Shown: in pieces, positions 45,146 to 51,817 of the stretch
How the letters are laid out: each line of letters begins with the position of its first letter
Numbering within the stretch: position 1 is the first letter of the stretch
Origin: an uncultured Opitutia bacterium
Lineage (GTDB): Bacteria; Verrucomicrobiota; Verrucomicrobiia; Opitutales; Opitutaceae
NCBI GenBank assembly: GCA_903881475.1
Contig: CAIRTK010000071.1
Coordinates: 1 to 64,000, forward strand
Length of the DNA stretch: 64,000 nt
Reading direction: 5' to 3'
Made by a program: the position numbers and the translations under genes
Notes under the pieces: generated by a model
What the model was told of the DNA's origin: nothing
What the model saw: only the letters and a program-made list of their open reading frames with translations
Database searches by the model: none

Positions 45146-46681
45146 TCAGGCCTTGAAAGCGCCGGCCTGGATCGCACCCAGGCCACCCGCGAGCGCATAA
45201 ACCCGCCTCACCCCCTCGGCCCGGAACAGCCGCGCCAGGGCGGCACTGCGCAGGCCGCGGCGGCAAGCCAGGACGGCAGGGCCCTTGCCCGCCAGTTCCC
45301 GCATGCGAACGAGATCGGCCATCGGCACAGCGATGGCTCCAGCCGGCGCAGTCGCGGAGTCGAGCGCCTCGCCTGCTTCCAACAGCGCGATCAACTGCAC
45401 GGGGCCGAGGGCGGCGATTTCCTCGGGTTGGACGATAACAGGGGTGTCGTCGGTAAATGCAGCACGCGGCGGGGGCGCTGCGTCTCCCTGGGCTTCGCTC
45501 GTCGGGGCCGACCCGCAGACCGGACAGGCGGGATCCGCGGGGCGCTCGATGCCGTAGGATGAGGCGTCGAGCAAGTTGACCAACCGCGTCTGCTTGAAAT
45601 CGATCGGGTCCGTGAGACGCAGGATCAGCTTCAAGGCCTCGGCGGCTTGCATGATGCCGAGCACGCCGACCGCCGGCCCAAAGACCGGGCCGCCCGAGCA
45701 GCTCGGCGCCGTCTCCAGCTGGGCCGGTTTCCGGCCGGACCACAGGCAGTGCAGGCAACCCGGCGCACCGGGTTCGAAAAGGTTCAGCTCGCCCTCGAAG
45801 CGATAGACCGCCGCCTGGACCAGCGGCACGCCGGCCTGACGGCAGGCGTCGTGCAGCAGGAATCGCGTCGCAAAATTATCCGTGCAATCCAGCACCGCCG
45901 TGCGCCGGGCCACGAGTGCGAGCACGTTGCCCGGTGTCACGTCCGTGTCCCGGGCCTCGACCTGCACCAGCGGGTTGTGCATCCGCAGCCGGGCCGCGGC
46001 GACAGTCGCCTTGGCCGCGCCCACGTCGTCCGCGGTGAACAGGATCTGCCGGTGCAGGTTTGAGACTTCCACCCGGCCGGCATCCACCAGGGTCAGCCGC
46101 CCCACCCCGGACGTCGCCAGATAGAGCGCCGCCGGACAACCCAGCCCGCCGACCCCGACCACCAGCACGCTGGCCGCAGCCAGCGCCGCCTGCCCGGCCG
46201 CGCCCACTTCGGGCAGCGAGGCCTGACGCGCGTAATAGGTTTCCAGCGAGAGCCGACCGGCGACGGACTCCGTGGTGCAGTTCACCCACTCGGCGACATT
46301 TCCCGGATGATGCTCCTTTTTCCACACGGGCAGCCGGCGCTTGATTTCCTCGATCACCTGCCGGCAGGCCAGAAACGCGCCGTGCCGGTGCGGCGAGGCC
46401 ACGCCGATCCACACCGCGAGTTCGCCGATCGCCAGCGAGCCGGTGCGATGGACGCATAGCACCGTGCAGCCGGGATGTGCCTCCTCCGCCTCGGCCGTGA
46501 TCGCCCCGCCTTCGAGCCGGGCGAGTTCGTCGAACGCCTCGTAGTCGAGCTGCGTGACCGGCCGGCCCGCGTGATGGTTGCGCACCCAGCCTTCGAACAC
46601 CACACACGCCCCGGCCTCGGGACGCTCGAGCCGGGCGCGCAGCGCGGCGCCGTCGATCGGTTGGTCCGTCAGTTCAAACAT
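45146..46681 (-). CDS. MoaE-MoeB-rhodanese three-domain fusion
   Basis: A 511-residue fusion with three molybdopterin-synthesis domains. MoaE covers residues 1 to about 140: VVFEGWVRNHHAGRPV and RLPVWKKEHHPG with the catalytic Lys pair 121/122. A MoeB/ThiF adenylyltransferase covers about 149-400: YYARQASLPEVG, the ATP loop GVGGLG at 176-181, VSNLHRQILF, LDCTDNFATR, and two CxxC zinc pairs in CLHC and CPVC. A rhodanese covers about 415-511, with the active-site loop CRRGLRS at Cys473. One chain could thus adenylylate MoaD, sulfurate it and use it to make molybdopterin; this coupling is inferred. The start lies four bases after the moaD stop. Confidence 0.93.
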   Translation of the reverse strand: MFELTDQPIDGAALRARLERPEAGACVVFEGWVRNHHAGRPVTQLDYEAFDELARLEGGAITAEAEEAHPGCTVLCVHRTGSLAIGELAVWIGVASPHRHGAFLACRQVIEEIKRRLPVWKKEHHPGNVAEWVNCTTESVAGRLSLETYYARQASLPEVGAAGQAALAAASVLVVGVGGLGCPAALYLATSGVGRLTLVDAGRVEVSNLHRQILFTADDVGAAKATVAAARLRMHNPLVQVEARDTDVTPGNVLALVARRTAVLDCTDNFATRFLLHDACRQAGVPLVQAAVYRFEGELNLFEPGAPGCLHCLWSGRKPAQLETAPSCSGGPVFGPAVGVLGIMQAAEALKLILRLTDPIDFKQTRLVNLLDASSYGIERPADPACPVCGSAPTSEAQGDAAPPPRAAFTDDTPVIVQPEEIAALGPVQLIALLEAGEALDSATAPAGAIAVPMADLVRMRELAGKGPAVLACRRGLRSAALARLFRAEGVRRVYALAGGLGAIQAGAFKA

Positions 46682-46685
46682 GGCA

Positions 46686-46940
46686 TCAGCCTCCGGCCAC
46701 CGGCGGGATGAACACCACGCGGTCGCCCGACTGCAACGGTGTCTCCATGGTCGCGTAGCGTTCGTTGATCGCAACCCGCAGCAGGCCGGCGGGAAACTGG
46801 AGCCCGCGGCCGGCCTGCAGCTCCCGATAGAGTTCCGCGGGCGTGCGGGCCGCCGTGGCGCAGTCCAAAGCGGAAACGCCGGCCTGCTCGCGCAGCACGG
46901 CGAAAAATTTAACCTGAACCTGGCGCGGGGAGTCAGCCAT
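46686..46940 (-). CDS. moaD: Molybdopterin synthase sulfur carrier subunit MoaD
   Basis: An 84-residue ubiquitin-fold protein starting MADSPRQVQVKFFAVLREQAG and ending DRVVFIPPVAGG. The C-terminal Gly-Gly is adenylylated by MoeB and thiocarboxylated, then donates sulfur to precursor Z within MoaD2MoaE2. It lies between moaA (seven bases upstream) and the MoaE fusion gene (four bases downstream). The longer open frame upstream is antisense noise within moaA. Confidence 0.93.
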   Translation of the reverse strand: MADSPRQVQVKFFAVLREQAGVSALDCATAARTPAELYRELQAGRGLQFPAGLLRVAINERYATMETPLQSGDRVVFIPPVAGG

Positions 46941-46947
46941 GGCCGGT

Positions 46948-47928
46948 TCAACCGCCGATTTCCGACATCCCGCGCGTGGTGGGGATGAGATGCTGCTCGA
47001 GCCCGTGGCCCCACGGCTTGTCGAACACCGCTTCGCGGATGCGGGCCGTAATCGCGGCATCGTCGGCGCCCCCGCGCAGCAGGGGCCGGAGATCCACCTC
47101 AGTGTCGCGCAGCAGGCAGAGGCGCAGCAGTCCCTCGGCGGTGAGGCGCAGCCGGTTGCAATCGGCGCAGAAGGGCTTGGACACCGGACTGATGAAACCG
47201 ATGCAGCCCGCGGCGCCGGCGATGCGGTAGAGGCGAGCCTCGCCATCGAGCCGGCCGTGGTTGACCAGCTCGAGCGGACCGTAGGCCGCCGTGAGCACGG
47301 CGTGCAGCTCCTCCTCGGTCACCATGCTGTGGGTCTGGAACCCGGCGTTGTTGCCGAAGGGCATCTGCTCGATGAAGCGGACCTGCCACGGCTGCTCCAG
47401 CGTATAGCGGGCGAGTGCGACGACATCCGCGCGGTCATTGTTGCCGCGAGAGACCACAGCGTTGAGCTTCACGCGCAACCCGGCGCGCGCGGCGGCATCA
47501 AGCCCGGCCAGCACGCGCTCCAGTTTGCCCCAGCGGGTGATCTGGCGGAATTTCTCCGGGTCGAGCGTATCGAGGGAAATGTTAACCGAGCGCAGGCCGG
47601 CGGCGCGCAGCGGCGCGGCGAGTTCGTCGAGCAGGATGCCGTTGGTCGTCAGCCCGATGGTCTCGATGCCGGGCGTGCGCGCGGCGTGGCCGACGAGGTC
47701 GACCAGCGCAGGCCGCAGCGTGGGCTCACCACCGGTGAAGCGGATCTTGCGGAAGCCGACGGCGGCAAACAGGCCGATCAGCCGCCGCAGTTCGTCGTCG
47801 GAGAGCAGTTCCTCGCGCGGACGGAAGGTCATCTTCTCCGGCATGCAGTACACGCAGCGGAGGTTGCAGGCATCCGTGAGGGAGATGCGGAGGTAGTCGA
47901 TGTCGCGGTTGTAGCGGTCGAAGGGCAT
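46948..47928 (-). CDS. moaA: GTP 3',8-cyclase MoaA
   Basis: This radical-SAM enzyme cyclises GTP in the first step of molybdenum cofactor synthesis, with MoaC. The N-terminal cluster motif is CNLRCVYC (about residues 21-28), followed by FTGGEPTLRP. The C-terminal cluster region is FCADCNRLRLTAEGLLRLCL, and the essential C-terminal Gly-Gly ends the 326-residue protein (RGMSEIGG). It follows mog by three bases. Confidence 0.96.
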   Translation of the reverse strand: MPFDRYNRDIDYLRISLTDACNLRCVYCMPEKMTFRPREELLSDDELRRLIGLFAAVGFRKIRFTGGEPTLRPALVDLVGHAARTPGIETIGLTTNGILLDELAAPLRAAGLRSVNISLDTLDPEKFRQITRWGKLERVLAGLDAAARAGLRVKLNAVVSRGNNDRADVVALARYTLEQPWQVRFIEQMPFGNNAGFQTHSMVTEEELHAVLTAAYGPLELVNHGRLDGEARLYRIAGAAGCIGFISPVSKPFCADCNRLRLTAEGLLRLCLLRDTEVDLRPLLRGGADDAAITARIREAVFDKPWGHGLEQHLIPTTRGMSEIGG

Positions 47929-47931
47929 CGG

Positions 47932-48423
47932 TTACGTCCGGAGTTTGGGCCGGAAACCCGCGATGTGGTCCAGCGCCTCGGCGATGGCCGGGACGAGGAG
48001 CGGCAGGCACTCGGCCACGGCGGTGGGCCGGCCGGGAAGATTGATGATCAACGCCCGCCCGCGGATGCCCGCGGTGGCCCGGGACAGGATCGCGGTCTTC
48101 ACGGTCGCATAGCTCGTCAGGCGCATGATCTCGCCGAAACCCGGCAGCTCCTTCTCCAGCACGGCGCGCGTGGCCTCGGGGGTGAAATCGCGCGCCGACG
48201 GTCCCGTGCCGCCGGCGGTCAGCACGAGCAGGCATTGCTCCTCGTCCACCAGCCGGCGCAGTTCCGCTTCGAGCTTGGACTGATCGTCGGCCAGCAGCAC
48301 GCGGGTCCACTCCAGCGGCTCGGCGAACGCCTGCTCGACGATGCGCTCGATCTCCGGGCCGCTCGCGTCGGGATAGACGCCGGCGGCGGCACGGTCGCTG
48401 AGTTTTACGCGGGCGACTTTCAT
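47932..48423 (-). CDS. mog: Molybdopterin adenylyltransferase (MogA/MoaB type)
   Basis: The 163-residue MoCF-domain protein adenylylates molybdopterin before Mo insertion. The motif [20 protein letters not shown] is diagnostic, with [20 protein letters not shown] and [18 protein letters not shown] following. The start ATG overlaps the moaC stop as ATGA. MogA and MoaB cannot be told apart firmly from sequence alone. Confidence 0.92.
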
Positions 48424-48884
48424 GACTTCCGTTTCTCGACGACGCGGATGCCGCCGATGGACATGCCTTTGTCGACCGCCTTGCACATGTCGTAGAGCGT
48501 CAGCGCCGTCACGGACACCGCGGTCAGGGCCTCCATCTCGACGCCGGTCTTGCCGGTCGTGCGGGCGGTCGCCTTCACGACGATGCCGTCGGGCTCGACC
48601 TTGAACTCGATCTCCACCGCGGTGAGCGCGAGCGGATGGCAGAGGGGAATGAGCGTGCTGGTGGCCTTGGCCGCCTGGATGCCGGCGATCTTCGCGACCG
48701 TGAGCACGTCGCCCTTCGGCAGGGCCTTCGCGCGCAGTTGCCGGATGGTCGCCGGGTCGCACGTCAGCCGGCCCACCGCCACCGCCTCGCGGACCGAATC
48801 GGGCTTCGCTCCCACGTCCACCATCCGGGCATTGCCCGTGGCATCGAGGTGGCTGAAGCCGGTGGAGGAAGTGGAGGATTTCAT
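48420..48884 (-). CDS. moaC: Cyclic pyranopterin monophosphate synthase MoaC
   Basis: MoaC turns the MoaA product into cyclic pyranopterin monophosphate (precursor Z). The 154-residue protein has [60 protein letters not shown] with the catalytic Asp, and CKAVDKGM. It is the first gene of the moa group and overlaps mog by four bases. Confidence 0.96.
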
Positions 48885-49040: not shown

Positions 49041-49784
49041 TCAAGCCGCTCCATCCTTGAGTGGACTGACATCAGCCGGTTTTGCCAGCTCATGATGCGG
49101 CCGCGGGCTGACGACAAACAACCCTGCAGGCGGGCCGCGCCGCACACAGCGGCCCTGCTCCAGCACGAGCACGTCATCACAAAGCGCAACTATCTCATCC
49201 GCGCTGTGGCTCACGAGCAGCATCGGAATCTTGAACTCGTCGCGGATCAGCCGCAGGTAGGGCAGGATCTGGTCCTTGAGTTCGCGATCGAGGCTGGCCA
49301 AGGGCTCGTCGAGCAGGAGCAGGTGCGGCGCCGCCAGGAGGGCGCGGCCAAAGGCCACGCGCTGGCGTTCGCCGCCCGACAGCGACCCGATGCGGCGCGC
49401 GACCAGTGACCCGAGGTTCAGCACGTCGCGGACGTGCTCGTAGGAGATGCCCGGACGGGTGGCGCGGGGGCGCGACCGCTGGCTGTAGCACAGATTCTCC
49501 TGCACATTGAGGTGGGTGAACAGGGCCGAGTCCTGCGGGACAAACCCCACTCCGCGGCTCTCCGGCGGCCGGAAGACGAGGGCAGCGGAATCGGTGAGCA
49601 CGACGCCATCGAGGCTGATAAGTCCGTCCGCCGGCCGGCGCAACCCGGCGATGGTCTCGAGCAAAGAGGTCTTGCCCGCGCCCGAGGCGCCGAACAGACC
49701 CGTGACGGGTGCGTCCAGCCGCGCATCGAGTTCAAGGGAAAACGAGGCCAGCGGGAGCCGCAGGCGGGTAATCTCCAGGCTCAT
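49041..49784 (-). CDS. modC: Molybdate ABC transporter ATPase, TOBE-less
   Basis: This 247-residue ATPase energises molybdate uptake. It has Walker A GASGAGKTSLLE, FVPQDSALFTHLNVQENL (Q-loop), signature LSGGERQRVAFGRALL and Walker B LLLLDEPLASLD. E. coli ModC is about 350 residues because of a C-terminal molybdate-binding TOBE region, which is absent here. ATG at 49784 overlaps the modB stop as ATGA. Confidence 0.92.
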   Translation of the reverse strand: MSLEITRLRLPLASFSLELDARLDAPVTGLFGASGAGKTSLLETIAGLRRPADGLISLDGVVLTDSAALVFRPPESRGVGFVPQDSALFTHLNVQENLCYSQRSRPRATRPGISYEHVRDVLNLGSLVARRIGSLSGGERQRVAFGRALLAAPHLLLLDEPLASLDRELKDQILPYLRLIRDEFKIPMLLVSHSADEIVALCDDVLVLEQGRCVRRGPPAGLFVVSPRPHHELAKPADVSPLKDGAA

Positions 49785-50449
49785 GCCGCCACCCTCCGCA
49801 GCAACCGCTCGCTGCACCAAACGGCCACGAACGCTAGAGCCACCGAAACCGCCAGGAAGGCGGCCGCCTCACCGTCGCGGCCGAGTTCGACCGAGTGGTA
49901 GATAGACAGCGACAGCGTCTCCGTCTTGCCGGGAATAAACCCGGCCACCATCACCGTCGCCCCGAACTCACCCAGCGCGCGGGCAAACGCCAGCACCGCG
50001 CCCGCAATCACGCCCGGCCGCGCCAGCGGCAGGGTGATGGTCCAAAACACGCGCCACGGCCCGGCGCCGAGCGTGCGGGCCACGTGCTCGACGCGGGGAC
50101 TGACGTTCTCAAAGGCCACCCGGGCGGTGCGCACCAGCAGCGGAAACGACATGACCGCGGTCGCGATCACGACCGCCTTCCACGTGAACACGATCTCGAT
50201 GCCGAGGCTGTTCTCCAGCCAATGCCCAAGCAGGCCGCGCCGGCCGAAGAGGTGCAGGAGAATCAGGCCGGTGGCCACCGGCGGGATCACCAGCGGGAGG
50301 GCGACGAGGGTCTCGACGATTGACTTGCCCGGCCATTGGCGCCGGGCCAGCAGCCAGGCCAGCGCGATGCCGGGCGGCAGGATCACCAGCGTGCTGGTGA
50401 CCGCGACCCACGCCGTGAACCAGGTGACCTGCCAGAGATCGGACGACAC
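49781..50449 (-). CDS. modB: Molybdate ABC transporter permease
   Basis: The 222-residue inner-membrane protein has about five hydrophobic segments. It carries the BPD_transp_1 coupling motif VARTLGAGPWRVFWTITLPL and FARALGEFGATVMVAGF, which is characteristic of ModB. It lies six bases after modA and overlaps modC by four. Confidence 0.94.
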   Translation of the reverse strand: MSSDLWQVTWFTAWVAVTSTLVILPPGIALAWLLARRQWPGKSIVETLVALPLVIPPVATGLILLHLFGRRGLLGHWLENSLGIEIVFTWKAVVIATAVMSFPLLVRTARVAFENVSPRVEHVARTLGAGPWRVFWTITLPLARPGVIAGAVLAFARALGEFGATVMVAGFIPGKTETLSLSIYHSVELGRDGEAAAFLAVSVALAFVAVWCSERLLRRVAA

Positions 50450-50455
50450 GGGAAA

Positions 50456-51217
50456 TCAGAGCTGCGGGACAAAGCCGAACTTGGCGAACACGGCCCGGCC
50501 CTCGACCGAGGCCAGCAGAGCCAGGAAGCGCGCGGCGCCCGCAGGATTCCTGCCGCCCACGATCAGGGCCACGGGGTAGGAAATACGCGGGCCGTCGGCA
50601 GCGGGAATCTCATGAGCCACCTTCACCTTGCGCGAAATCAACGCGTCCGTCTTGTACACGATGCCGGCGTCGGCGTTGCCGCTCTCGACGGCAGCGAGCG
50701 CGCCGCGGACATTTTCGGTGGACACAATCTTCGCGAGGACAGCCGTCCACCAGCCCTTTTTCTGGAGGTATTCGCGGGCATAGATGCCCGCCGGCACCGT
50801 GGCCGGCTCGGCGATCGCCACGCGCCGCACTGCCGGGCCGGTCAGGTCGGCGGCTGATTTCAGCACCAGGGTGCTGTCGGCCGCGACCACGATGACGAGC
50901 GTGTTGCCCAGCACGCTCCGCCGCGTGGCCGGGACGATCAGGCCGGCCTTGGCAAGGTCGTCCATCTTGGCCTCATCCGCCGAGAAAAACAGATCGGCCG
51001 GCGCCCCGGCCTTGATCTGGCGGGCGAGCGTGCTGGAGGCCGCGAGATTCAAGTGCACGGTGTCGCCGGTCGCCTTCTGGTAGCTGGCGGCGAGGACCTG
51101 CAGCGCGTCGGACAGACTCGCAGCGGCGAAGACGTTCAACTCGGCGGCAAAGGCCGAACCCGTCGCGGCGAGCACGATGAGCAGCAGGCATTGGGTGGCG
51201 GGACGGCGCAGGTTCAT
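50456..51217 (-). CDS. modA: Molybdate-binding periplasmic protein
   Basis: A 253-residue binding protein with a signal peptide (CLLLIVLAATGSAFAAELNV). ModA features are NVFAAASLSDALQVLA, LNLAASSTLARQIKAGAPAD, LFFSADEAKMDDL and ARFLALLASVEGRAVFAKFG. It captures molybdate or tungstate for ModBC. The gene starts two bases after the preceding small molybdopterin-domain gene. Confidence 0.95.
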   Translation of the reverse strand: MNLRRPATQCLLLIVLAATGSAFAAELNVFAAASLSDALQVLAASYQKATGDTVHLNLAASSTLARQIKAGAPADLFFSADEAKMDDLAKAGLIVPATRRSVLGNTLVIVVAADSTLVLKSAADLTGPAVRRVAIAEPATVPAGIYAREYLQKKGWWTAVLAKIVSTENVRGALAAVESGNADAGIVYKTDALISRKVKVAHEIPAADGPRISYPVALIVGGRNPAGAARFLALLASVEGRAVFAKFGFVPQL

Positions 51218-51219
51218 GG

Positions 51220-51765
51220 TCAGGGTTGGGACTTCGGCAGGGCGACGCGTTTACGCTCGCCGGTCGCCAGCGAGATTACCTCCATCGAAAGCACTTGTCG
51301 GATGGACCGGGCAGGACGCTTGTCACCGGGGCAAACCAGCCGCAGCGGCCCTGCAGTCGCGGGTAGCGGCGCCCCGTCCATGTGGTCAGCCAGCAGGATG
51401 GTCTGTTCGCGGAAAGCGGGGTCGAACTCCGCCAGCGAAAACACAACGACGTAGCCGTCCGCCGCGCGCACCCGGACCACGAGCGCCAGGGCGGCGCCGC
51501 GGAATTTCTCGCCCTGCGGCATGCCGACCAGCGCCAGCACATCGCGGGCGGCCACGCCGCGATAGTGGTGCGGTTTCCCGTGGTCCACAACGTCGGCTGC
51601 CACCGGAGCCAGCTGGGCGAGATCGGCCGCGGATACCTCCTTGTGCTGGTCGCCAAACGTGACACTGAGCAGGGAATCGGCGGCCCTCAGACCCGGGGAG
51701 GCTAGAGCGCAGAGTGCCAGCAGCCAGACGGAGCGGATGAGTCTGGAATGAAACGGAAGCCTCAT
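51220..51765 (-). CDS. Exported molybdopterin-binding-domain protein (sulfite-oxidase-like)
   Basis: This 181-residue protein starts at MRLPFHSRLIRSVWLLALCA with a signal peptide ending near LRAAD. The mature part (HHYRGVAARDVLALVGMP, DGYVVVFSLAEFD, PLRLVCPGDKRPARSIRQVL) resembles the short oxidoreductase molybdopterin-binding domain (PF00174-like) found beside mod genes in other bacteria. It lacks a clear Moco-ligand Cys in the usual context, so catalysis is doubtful. It is the first gene of the mod operon, two bases before modA. A longer start at 51801 is possible. Confidence 0.7.
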   Translation of the reverse strand: MRLPFHSRLIRSVWLLALCALASPGLRAADSLLSVTFGDQHKEVSAADLAQLAPVAADVVDHGKPHHYRGVAARDVLALVGMPQGEKFRGAALALVVRVRAADGYVVVFSLAEFDPAFREQTILLADHMDGAPLPATAGPLRLVCPGDKRPARSIRQVLSMEVISLATGERKRVALPKSQP

Positions 51766-51817
51766 GCGCCCATGACTGGGCGAAGCCACCGATCTCTTCA
51801 AGAGAATAGGTCGGCAT

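Follow-up and report, generated by a model that had tools for sequence, protein, structure and literature searches.

The locus

The window, a stretch of DNA of 64,000 nucleotides from an uncultured Opitutia bacterium, carries a molybdenum cluster on its minus strand, in the order modA, modB, modC-like, moaC, mogA, moaA, moaD and, last, a fused gene. Scores above the model cut-off identify modA (50456..51217; TIGR01256, 202 bits), modB (49781..50449; TIGR02141, 235 bits), moaC (48420..48884; TIGR00581, 192 bits), a mogA-like molybdopterin adenylyltransferase (47932..48423; NF006932, 182 bits) and moaA (46948..47928; TIGR02666, 370 bits); the modC-like ATP-binding protein (49041..49820) reaches 265 bits with TIGR02142, below the cut-off of 285. 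The gene for a separate sulfur carrier, moaD (46686..46940, minus strand like the others), is recognized by PF02597 (55.5 bits), by TIGR01682 (65.4 bits, just under the cut-off of 66.15) and by alignment with E. coli MoaD. Its product ends in PPVAGG, with a free Gly-Gly, and its stop codon and the ATG of the fused gene are 4 bases apart. Directly before modA, the frame 51220-51801 (minus strand) gives a weak match to an oxidoreductase molybdopterin-binding domain (29.8 bits, with the cut-off at 24) and may encode a cofactor user. No tRNA was found near the molybdenum cluster.

The fused moaE-moeB-rhodanese gene (45146..46681, minus strand) is a single open frame of 511 residues that runs from an ATG at 46681 to its stop; the plus-strand frame over the same positions is interrupted by stops. 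A first-pass annotation of this DNA had the coordinates and the length exactly, without giving the strand, and its placement of MoaE, MoeB and rhodanese on one scaffold holds on the open frame and the Pfam domains. All three domains lie on the minus strand. The MoaE domain (residues 4-116, 46334..46672), to which K114 and K121 belong, scores 110.4 bits with PF02391 against a cut-off of 23.4 and covers profile positions 1-114 of 114. The MoeB/ThiF-type E1 domain (residues 150-364, 45590..46234) scores 224 bits with the Pfam ThiF domain, far above the cut-off, and aligns with E. coli MoeB. The rhodanese-like domain (residues 408-511, 45149..45460, with Cys473) is recognized by a weak Pfam match together with a structure model and its PDB matches. 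The motifs that had been described as intact were all located, GVGGLG at 176-181, the two CxxC pairs at 309/312 and 386/389, and CRRGLRS at 473. A search for a carrier domain within the fused chain, of the MoaX type, found none, MoaD being the product of its own gene.

The draft assembly that contains the window, 3.21 Mb in 83 contigs, has a completeness of 99.91 percent, and the absences given for this genome rest on that draft. It holds one MoaE, the fused one. Of its two ThiF-family genes one is the fusion; the other lies at C67, and its best model by far is TcdA (278 bits, the cut-off being 304, with 98 for the next best). No other MoeB-like E1 and no second MoaE was found in the draft, which answers the earlier concern that separate moaE and moeB genes elsewhere might do the job. 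The one ThiS/MoaD-family protein in the draft is the MoaD that adjoins the fused gene, and ThiG was not found there.

Catalytic residues of the MoaE and E1 domains

Alignment with the E. coli K-12 proteins (from NC_000913) gives 36 percent identity for the MoaE domain, in which R34, H98, K114 and K121 correspond to R39, H103, K119 and K126 of E. coli MoaE, and 39 percent identity for the E1 domain, in which R152, R211, K224, D268 and C328 correspond to R14, R73, K86, D130 and C187 of E. coli MoeB. Four of the latter (R14, R73, K86 and D130) have a catalytic role in MoeB. The zinc cysteines of MoeB, 172/175 and 244/247, fall at 309/312 and 386/389 of the fused protein. Lys121 and Lys122 had been singled out in the first-pass annotation; Lys121 stands as the counterpart of K126, whereas Lys122 matches neither E. 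coli lysine and Lys114 had been missed, because K119 and K126 of E. coli MoaE align with K114 and K121. The listed catalytic residues, K114 and K121 included, are invariant in all 16 aligned fused proteins, with the exception of the second zinc pair, which is changed in three of them (L042, L043 and L057). According to the papers cited here by PMC number, all of which are drawn on in excerpt, K119 of E. coli MoaE is essential (PMC4443979) and counterparts of the above MoeB residues are present in Uba4 (PMC7527816).

The three proteins with an altered second CxxC pair are proteobacterial (L042:6001-7593, L043:6001-7575, L057:6001-7845) and have in addition a histidine-rich linker joining MoaE to MoeB and a CERC at the MoaE end, possibly marking a metal site that has been replaced or moved.

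Two CxxC pairs are said to set MoeB and MoeBR apart from MoeZ and MoeZR (excerpt of PMC3227635), and the fused protein has both pairs (C309/C312 and C386/C389). Its E1 domain is nonetheless not filed under the NCBIfam MoeB, MoeZ or ThiF equivalogs, because it scores under every cut-off: 166.5 against 376.6 for TIGR02355, 256.9 against 449 for NF006444, 172.3 against 647 for NF005902 and 214.1 against 275.3 for TIGR02356.

The rhodanese-like domain and structure models

The Pfam rhodanese profile (PF00581) matches residues 460-505 only, at 17.7 bits against a gathering cut-off of 22.2, and 10 of the 16 fused members have a rhodanese match with E no higher than 0.01. A D-x-R stretch (VDxRE/IDVRE) is kept in the seven more distant members and lost in the other nine, which make up the window's clade. 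Cys473, Gly476 and Arg478 are invariant in all 16 aligned proteins in spite of divergence over the remainder of the domain, where mean column identity is 35 percent. A model of the domain by itself (104 residues, 16 rows) gave a pLDDT of 91.6, and its best PDB matches were rhodanese domains, the first at E 8.6e-4 and the only one under 0.001; a 112-residue chain of a Uba4 entry was the seventh match. With the active-site cysteine loop and the predicted rhodanese fold both found, the third domain is plausibly a shortened sulfurtransferase. The earlier proposal of a rhodanese that can supply the sulfur thus stays plausible on the invariant Cys473 and Arg478; sulfur transfer by the domain may all the same be weak or gone, because the match is under the Pfam cut-off and the D-x-R stretch is lost in the window's protein as in the rest of its clade.

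The model of the whole chain (pLDDT 83.3, pTM 0.50) is weak at two joints, 136-144, where pLDDT is under 50, and 392-409. Its top PDB match is full-length Uba4, an E1-rhodanese protein, over 433 columns. There was no MoaE structure among the 50 PDB matches listed for it, and among the 60 of 84 sequence matches listed no chain matched both the MoaE and the E1 parts. The model was rejected as a guide to domain orientation, the placement of MoaE against E1 not being confident at this pTM.

Distribution

Other genomes share the fused architecture. The fused gene is present in 11 of 12 same-genus genomes, the window's own included, with the copy in G001 cut by a contig end; neither MoaE nor an E1 enzyme was seen in another member of the genus, G010. 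Near full-length fused matches occur in 17 of 387 sampled Verrucomicrobiota genomes, again counting the window's own, and these carriers span five families (f1, f41, f43, f69 and f75). In the class to which G442 (a Steroidobacteraceae record) belongs, 185 genomes were sampled and two carry the fusion, G442 being one. Further fused records are by title from Krumholzibacteriota (L036, L040), Rhodospirillales (L038), Gammaproteobacteria (L057), a proteobacterium (L043) and a bacterium (L041), the contig scan for such records having used six short peptide patterns (best 80 of 582). The counts are lower bounds because of split contigs, and titles may be wrong because many of the records are bins.

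These relatives settle whether the fusion exists. The gene was read from a single draft contig, and the first-pass annotation had allowed for a sequencing frameshift or an assembly join; the chance of such an artefact is now negligible, because fused frames recur in 11 of the 12 same-genus genomes as well as in further families and phyla, and because one relative (G008) has a full-length frame that is 90 percent identical. The MoaE-MoeB-rhodanese fusion is confirmed as real, with chance, frameshift and join ruled out as its origin.

The neighbouring carrier gene is likewise conserved. A MoaD gene with a Gly-Gly end lies 3 to 250 bases upstream in 39 of the 40 distinct fused loci whose upstream stretch is long enough to tell, a count from which duplicates were removed and in which three contig-edge loci (G007, L040 and L044) and the second G374 copy were set aside. 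The sole exception among the 40 is L041, which has no MoaD-like gene in 6 kb upstream.

Several loci have features of their own. Upstream of the fused gene of G001 (L106:2734-3678), MoaC and MogA matches fall in one open frame, perhaps a second fusion. Two genomes have two fused copies each, G374 (at C40 and C31) and G174 (at C177 and C281), and the second G374 copy matches model positions 1-389 only, without the rhodanese part. L036 (G437, a Krumholzibacteriota bin) has an in-frame stop in the ThiF domain that may be an error or mark a pseudogene; intact relatives exist.

Origin of the fusion

The E1 tree groups the 16 fused rows with one other, L045, in a single clade (ultrafast bootstrap 100, SH-aLRT 93), and the same 17-row set was recovered with support of 99 on 90 rows. 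The fused rows were picked greedily, with near-copies of more than about 72 percent identity removed, and the tree was built under a simpler model after prior removal of eight far single rows. L045 (2481-4149, Ignavibacteria), the only unfused row in the clade, has neighbouring moaE and E1-rhodanese genes in different frames; its position inside the fused clade requires two changes, and its split genes could represent either a fission or the ancestral state. The MoaE tree (137 columns) is poorly resolved, with five changes as drawn and one fused clade in 0 percent of bootstraps. An AU test on this tree, which left out the single rows L218, L077, L066 and L090 and the partial L037, did not reject a single fused clade (p 0.52) or the fused rows plus L045 (p 0.30), a result that is no proof of a single origin. 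On these sequences, repeated independent fusion is not favoured.

Where the loci of unfused relatives were read, moaD and moaE mostly adjoin and the E1 gene is at another site, which in G034 and G017 borders on thiH and thiG. Taken with the E1 clade, these loci make the fused gene look like part of an old fused lineage and not like one that arose locally from the moaE and moeB of its own family.

The idea that fusion was possible since the E1 no longer serves ThiS is post hoc and suggestive only. It draws support from the window's own draft genome, where the lack of ThiG and of any ThiS-family protein besides MoaD is consistent with an E1 that serves MoaD alone, and from relatives whose unfused E1 adjoins thiH and thiG, as read in G034 and G017 and as coordinates indicate for G021, G037 and G043. 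Of the 41 distinct fused genomes searched, 34 gave no ThiG match below an E of 1e-90, several of the 34 having weak partial matches (best 6e-9); the 41 count five re-found genus members, L026 (the same as G400) and L029 (the same as G201) once each. Three of the seven ThiG-bearing fused genomes have a separate E1 (G435, G441 and G444). Other genomes speak against the idea: G438 has, apart from its fused gene, no more than a ThiF fragment, and G174 and G205 have further ThiF-family genes of ambiguous type. G003 has ThiC, ThiS, ThiG and a ThiH-like gene, and no separate E1 was seen; it cannot decide the matter, because its 6.1-kb thi contig breaks off just past the ThiH-like gene, at the place that the E1 occupies in G034 and G017. 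Within the family, ThiG occurs in 1 of 11 fused as against 8 of 23 unfused E1-bearing genomes, a difference that is not significant (Fisher p 0.21), and the 15 of 23 unfused E1-bearing genomes that lack ThiG count against the idea.

A proposed route for sulfur

The reading that best accommodates these findings is that the product is a three-domain molybdopterin-synthesis enzyme working with separately made MoaD; it is probably correct, each catalytic step being assigned by homology. MoaD would bind the MoeB-type domain, where its C-terminal glycine would be adenylated with ATP (R152, R211, K224 and D268). The rhodanese-like domain would hold sulfur as a persulfide on Cys473 and convert the MoaD C-terminus to a thiocarboxylate, perhaps by way of a thioester on Cys328, the crossover-loop cysteine, before persulfide attack as in Uba4. 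MoaD-COSH would then pass to a tethered MoaE domain, either in the same chain or in an adjacent one, and the K114/K121 site there would transfer the sulfur to cyclic pyranopterin monophosphate, and the spent MoaD would go back to the E1, two rounds being needed for one molybdopterin. In the excerpted account of Uba4, adenylate formation is followed by a thioester with the cysteine of the crossover loop, which the persulfide of the rhodanese then attacks, and the thiocarboxylate is released (PMC7527816); MoeBR and MoeZR are described as producing MoaD thiocarboxylate (PMC3227635).

The first-pass annotation had suggested that MoaD could be charged and discharged on one scaffold. The conserved catalytic residues, the separate moaD 4 nt upstream with its Gly-Gly end and the lack of another ThiS/MoaD-family carrier in the draft genome all fit that suggestion. 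With E1 and MoaE joined, both docking sites should be more concentrated locally, and the MoaD C-terminus is left unblocked. The gain from tethering or channelling is itself hypothetical, and tethering may bring none.

A fusion that only fixes co-expression, in which the enzymes act just as separate MoaE and MoeB-rhodanese would and nothing is channelled, is a strong contender that falls somewhat short of being probable. Unfused relatives keep the same functions apart, and the joints at 136-144 and 392-409 look disordered in the model, whereas the persistence of an old fused E1 lineage over several phyla, with MoaD upstream at nearly all testable loci, suggests, without proving, selection for the joined form.

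A different source of sulfur would be required if the C-terminal domain were no longer a sulfurtransferase in the window's clade and survived as a structural remnant, a cysteine desulfurase sulfurating MoaD-AMP directly. That route is known in E. coli (excerpt of PMC3227635), and the sub-threshold Pfam score and the missing D-x-R stretch in nine members would agree with it; the loss appears unlikely, however, given that Cys473, Gly476 and Arg478 do not vary in a domain that diverges elsewhere.

Of the more elaborate possibilities, it is improbable that the protein is a tethered relay in which MoaD swings between E1, rhodanese and MoaE without leaving the assembly, combined with an off switch in which this proximity lets the E1 load MoaD onto the MoaE active-site lysine and with a moaD-[moaE-moeB-rhd] cassette that would be an old molybdenum-dedicated E1 lineage moved between phyla. 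Still less likely, and very doubtful, is the proposal that the link between E1 and MoaE serves to attach MoaD to the active-site lysine of MoaE, shutting the enzyme off reversibly as SAMP1 does with archaeal MoaE. SAMP1 is described as isopeptide-linked to K240 of MoaE (the equivalent of E. coli K119), with inhibition of the synthase (PMC4443979), Uba4 with a mutated cysteine is described as conjugating Urm1 to itself under oxidation (PMC7527816), and K114 is invariant among the aligned fused proteins. Against this, no convincing JAMM isopeptidase partner was found: the own genome has one match, to part of the domain, at 22.1 bits against a 25-bit cut-off, and the partial matches in 14 of 20 fused genomes, seven of them above the cut-off and none strong, are suspected to be RadC.

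Comparison with known systems

The enzyme that charges the carrier, E1, and the one that spends the charge, MoaE, use the same small protein in turn, and the three-domain enzyme ties both together while the carrier stays free. As a natural fusion it lets the effect of tethering on a ubiquitin-like sulfur relay be measured, and close relatives with split genes can serve as controls. Architecture alone also suffices to assign the ThiF-family genes of the fused lineage to the molybdenum cofactor, in a superfamily where one member is not easily told from another.

The fused protein is filed as known enzymes joined in a new domain architecture, the chemistry being known. Searches of open-licence PMC papers brought up no report of MoaE joined to MoeB among the papers listed. 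Burroughs and colleagues are said to have surveyed E1-like enzymes in 2009, and that survey or a domain database may list this architecture. The excerpted part of a domain-fusion paper contains no MoaE-MoeB fusion (PMC6147048); published fusions are MoeBR/MOCS3, MoaX, MoaC-MoaE, MoaD-MoeB and MoaD-MoeBR (PMC11237513, PMC1779556, PMC3227635).

In E. coli, MoaE and MoeB are encoded by separate, distant genes and MoeB has no rhodanese, yet the catalytic residues align with those of the fused protein. MoeBR and MoeZR of mycobacteria and MOCS3 and Uba4 of eukaryotes likewise place a rhodanese C-terminal to an E1, with the E1 residues and the rhodanese cysteine kept; unlike the fused protein they have no N-terminal MoaE, and the rhodanese of the fused protein is degenerate. 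MoeZR also serves CysO (PMC3227635); in the draft genome of the fused protein, MoaD is the sole carrier found. The MoaD-MoeB and MoaD-MoeBR proteins of Thaumarchaeota, Rokubacteria and others are also fusions of the carrier-activating E1, with MoaD and not MoaE as the partner (PMC11237513). In MoaX and other MoaD-MoaE proteins a molybdopterin synthase subunit is again fused to a working partner, but there the carrier itself is joined to MoaE and cleavage is needed for a free Gly-Gly (PMC4326299, PMC11237513), just as the carrier C-terminus of a SAMP1-MoaE fusion is blocked until it is cleaved (PMC4443979); in the protein described here, MoaD is separate.
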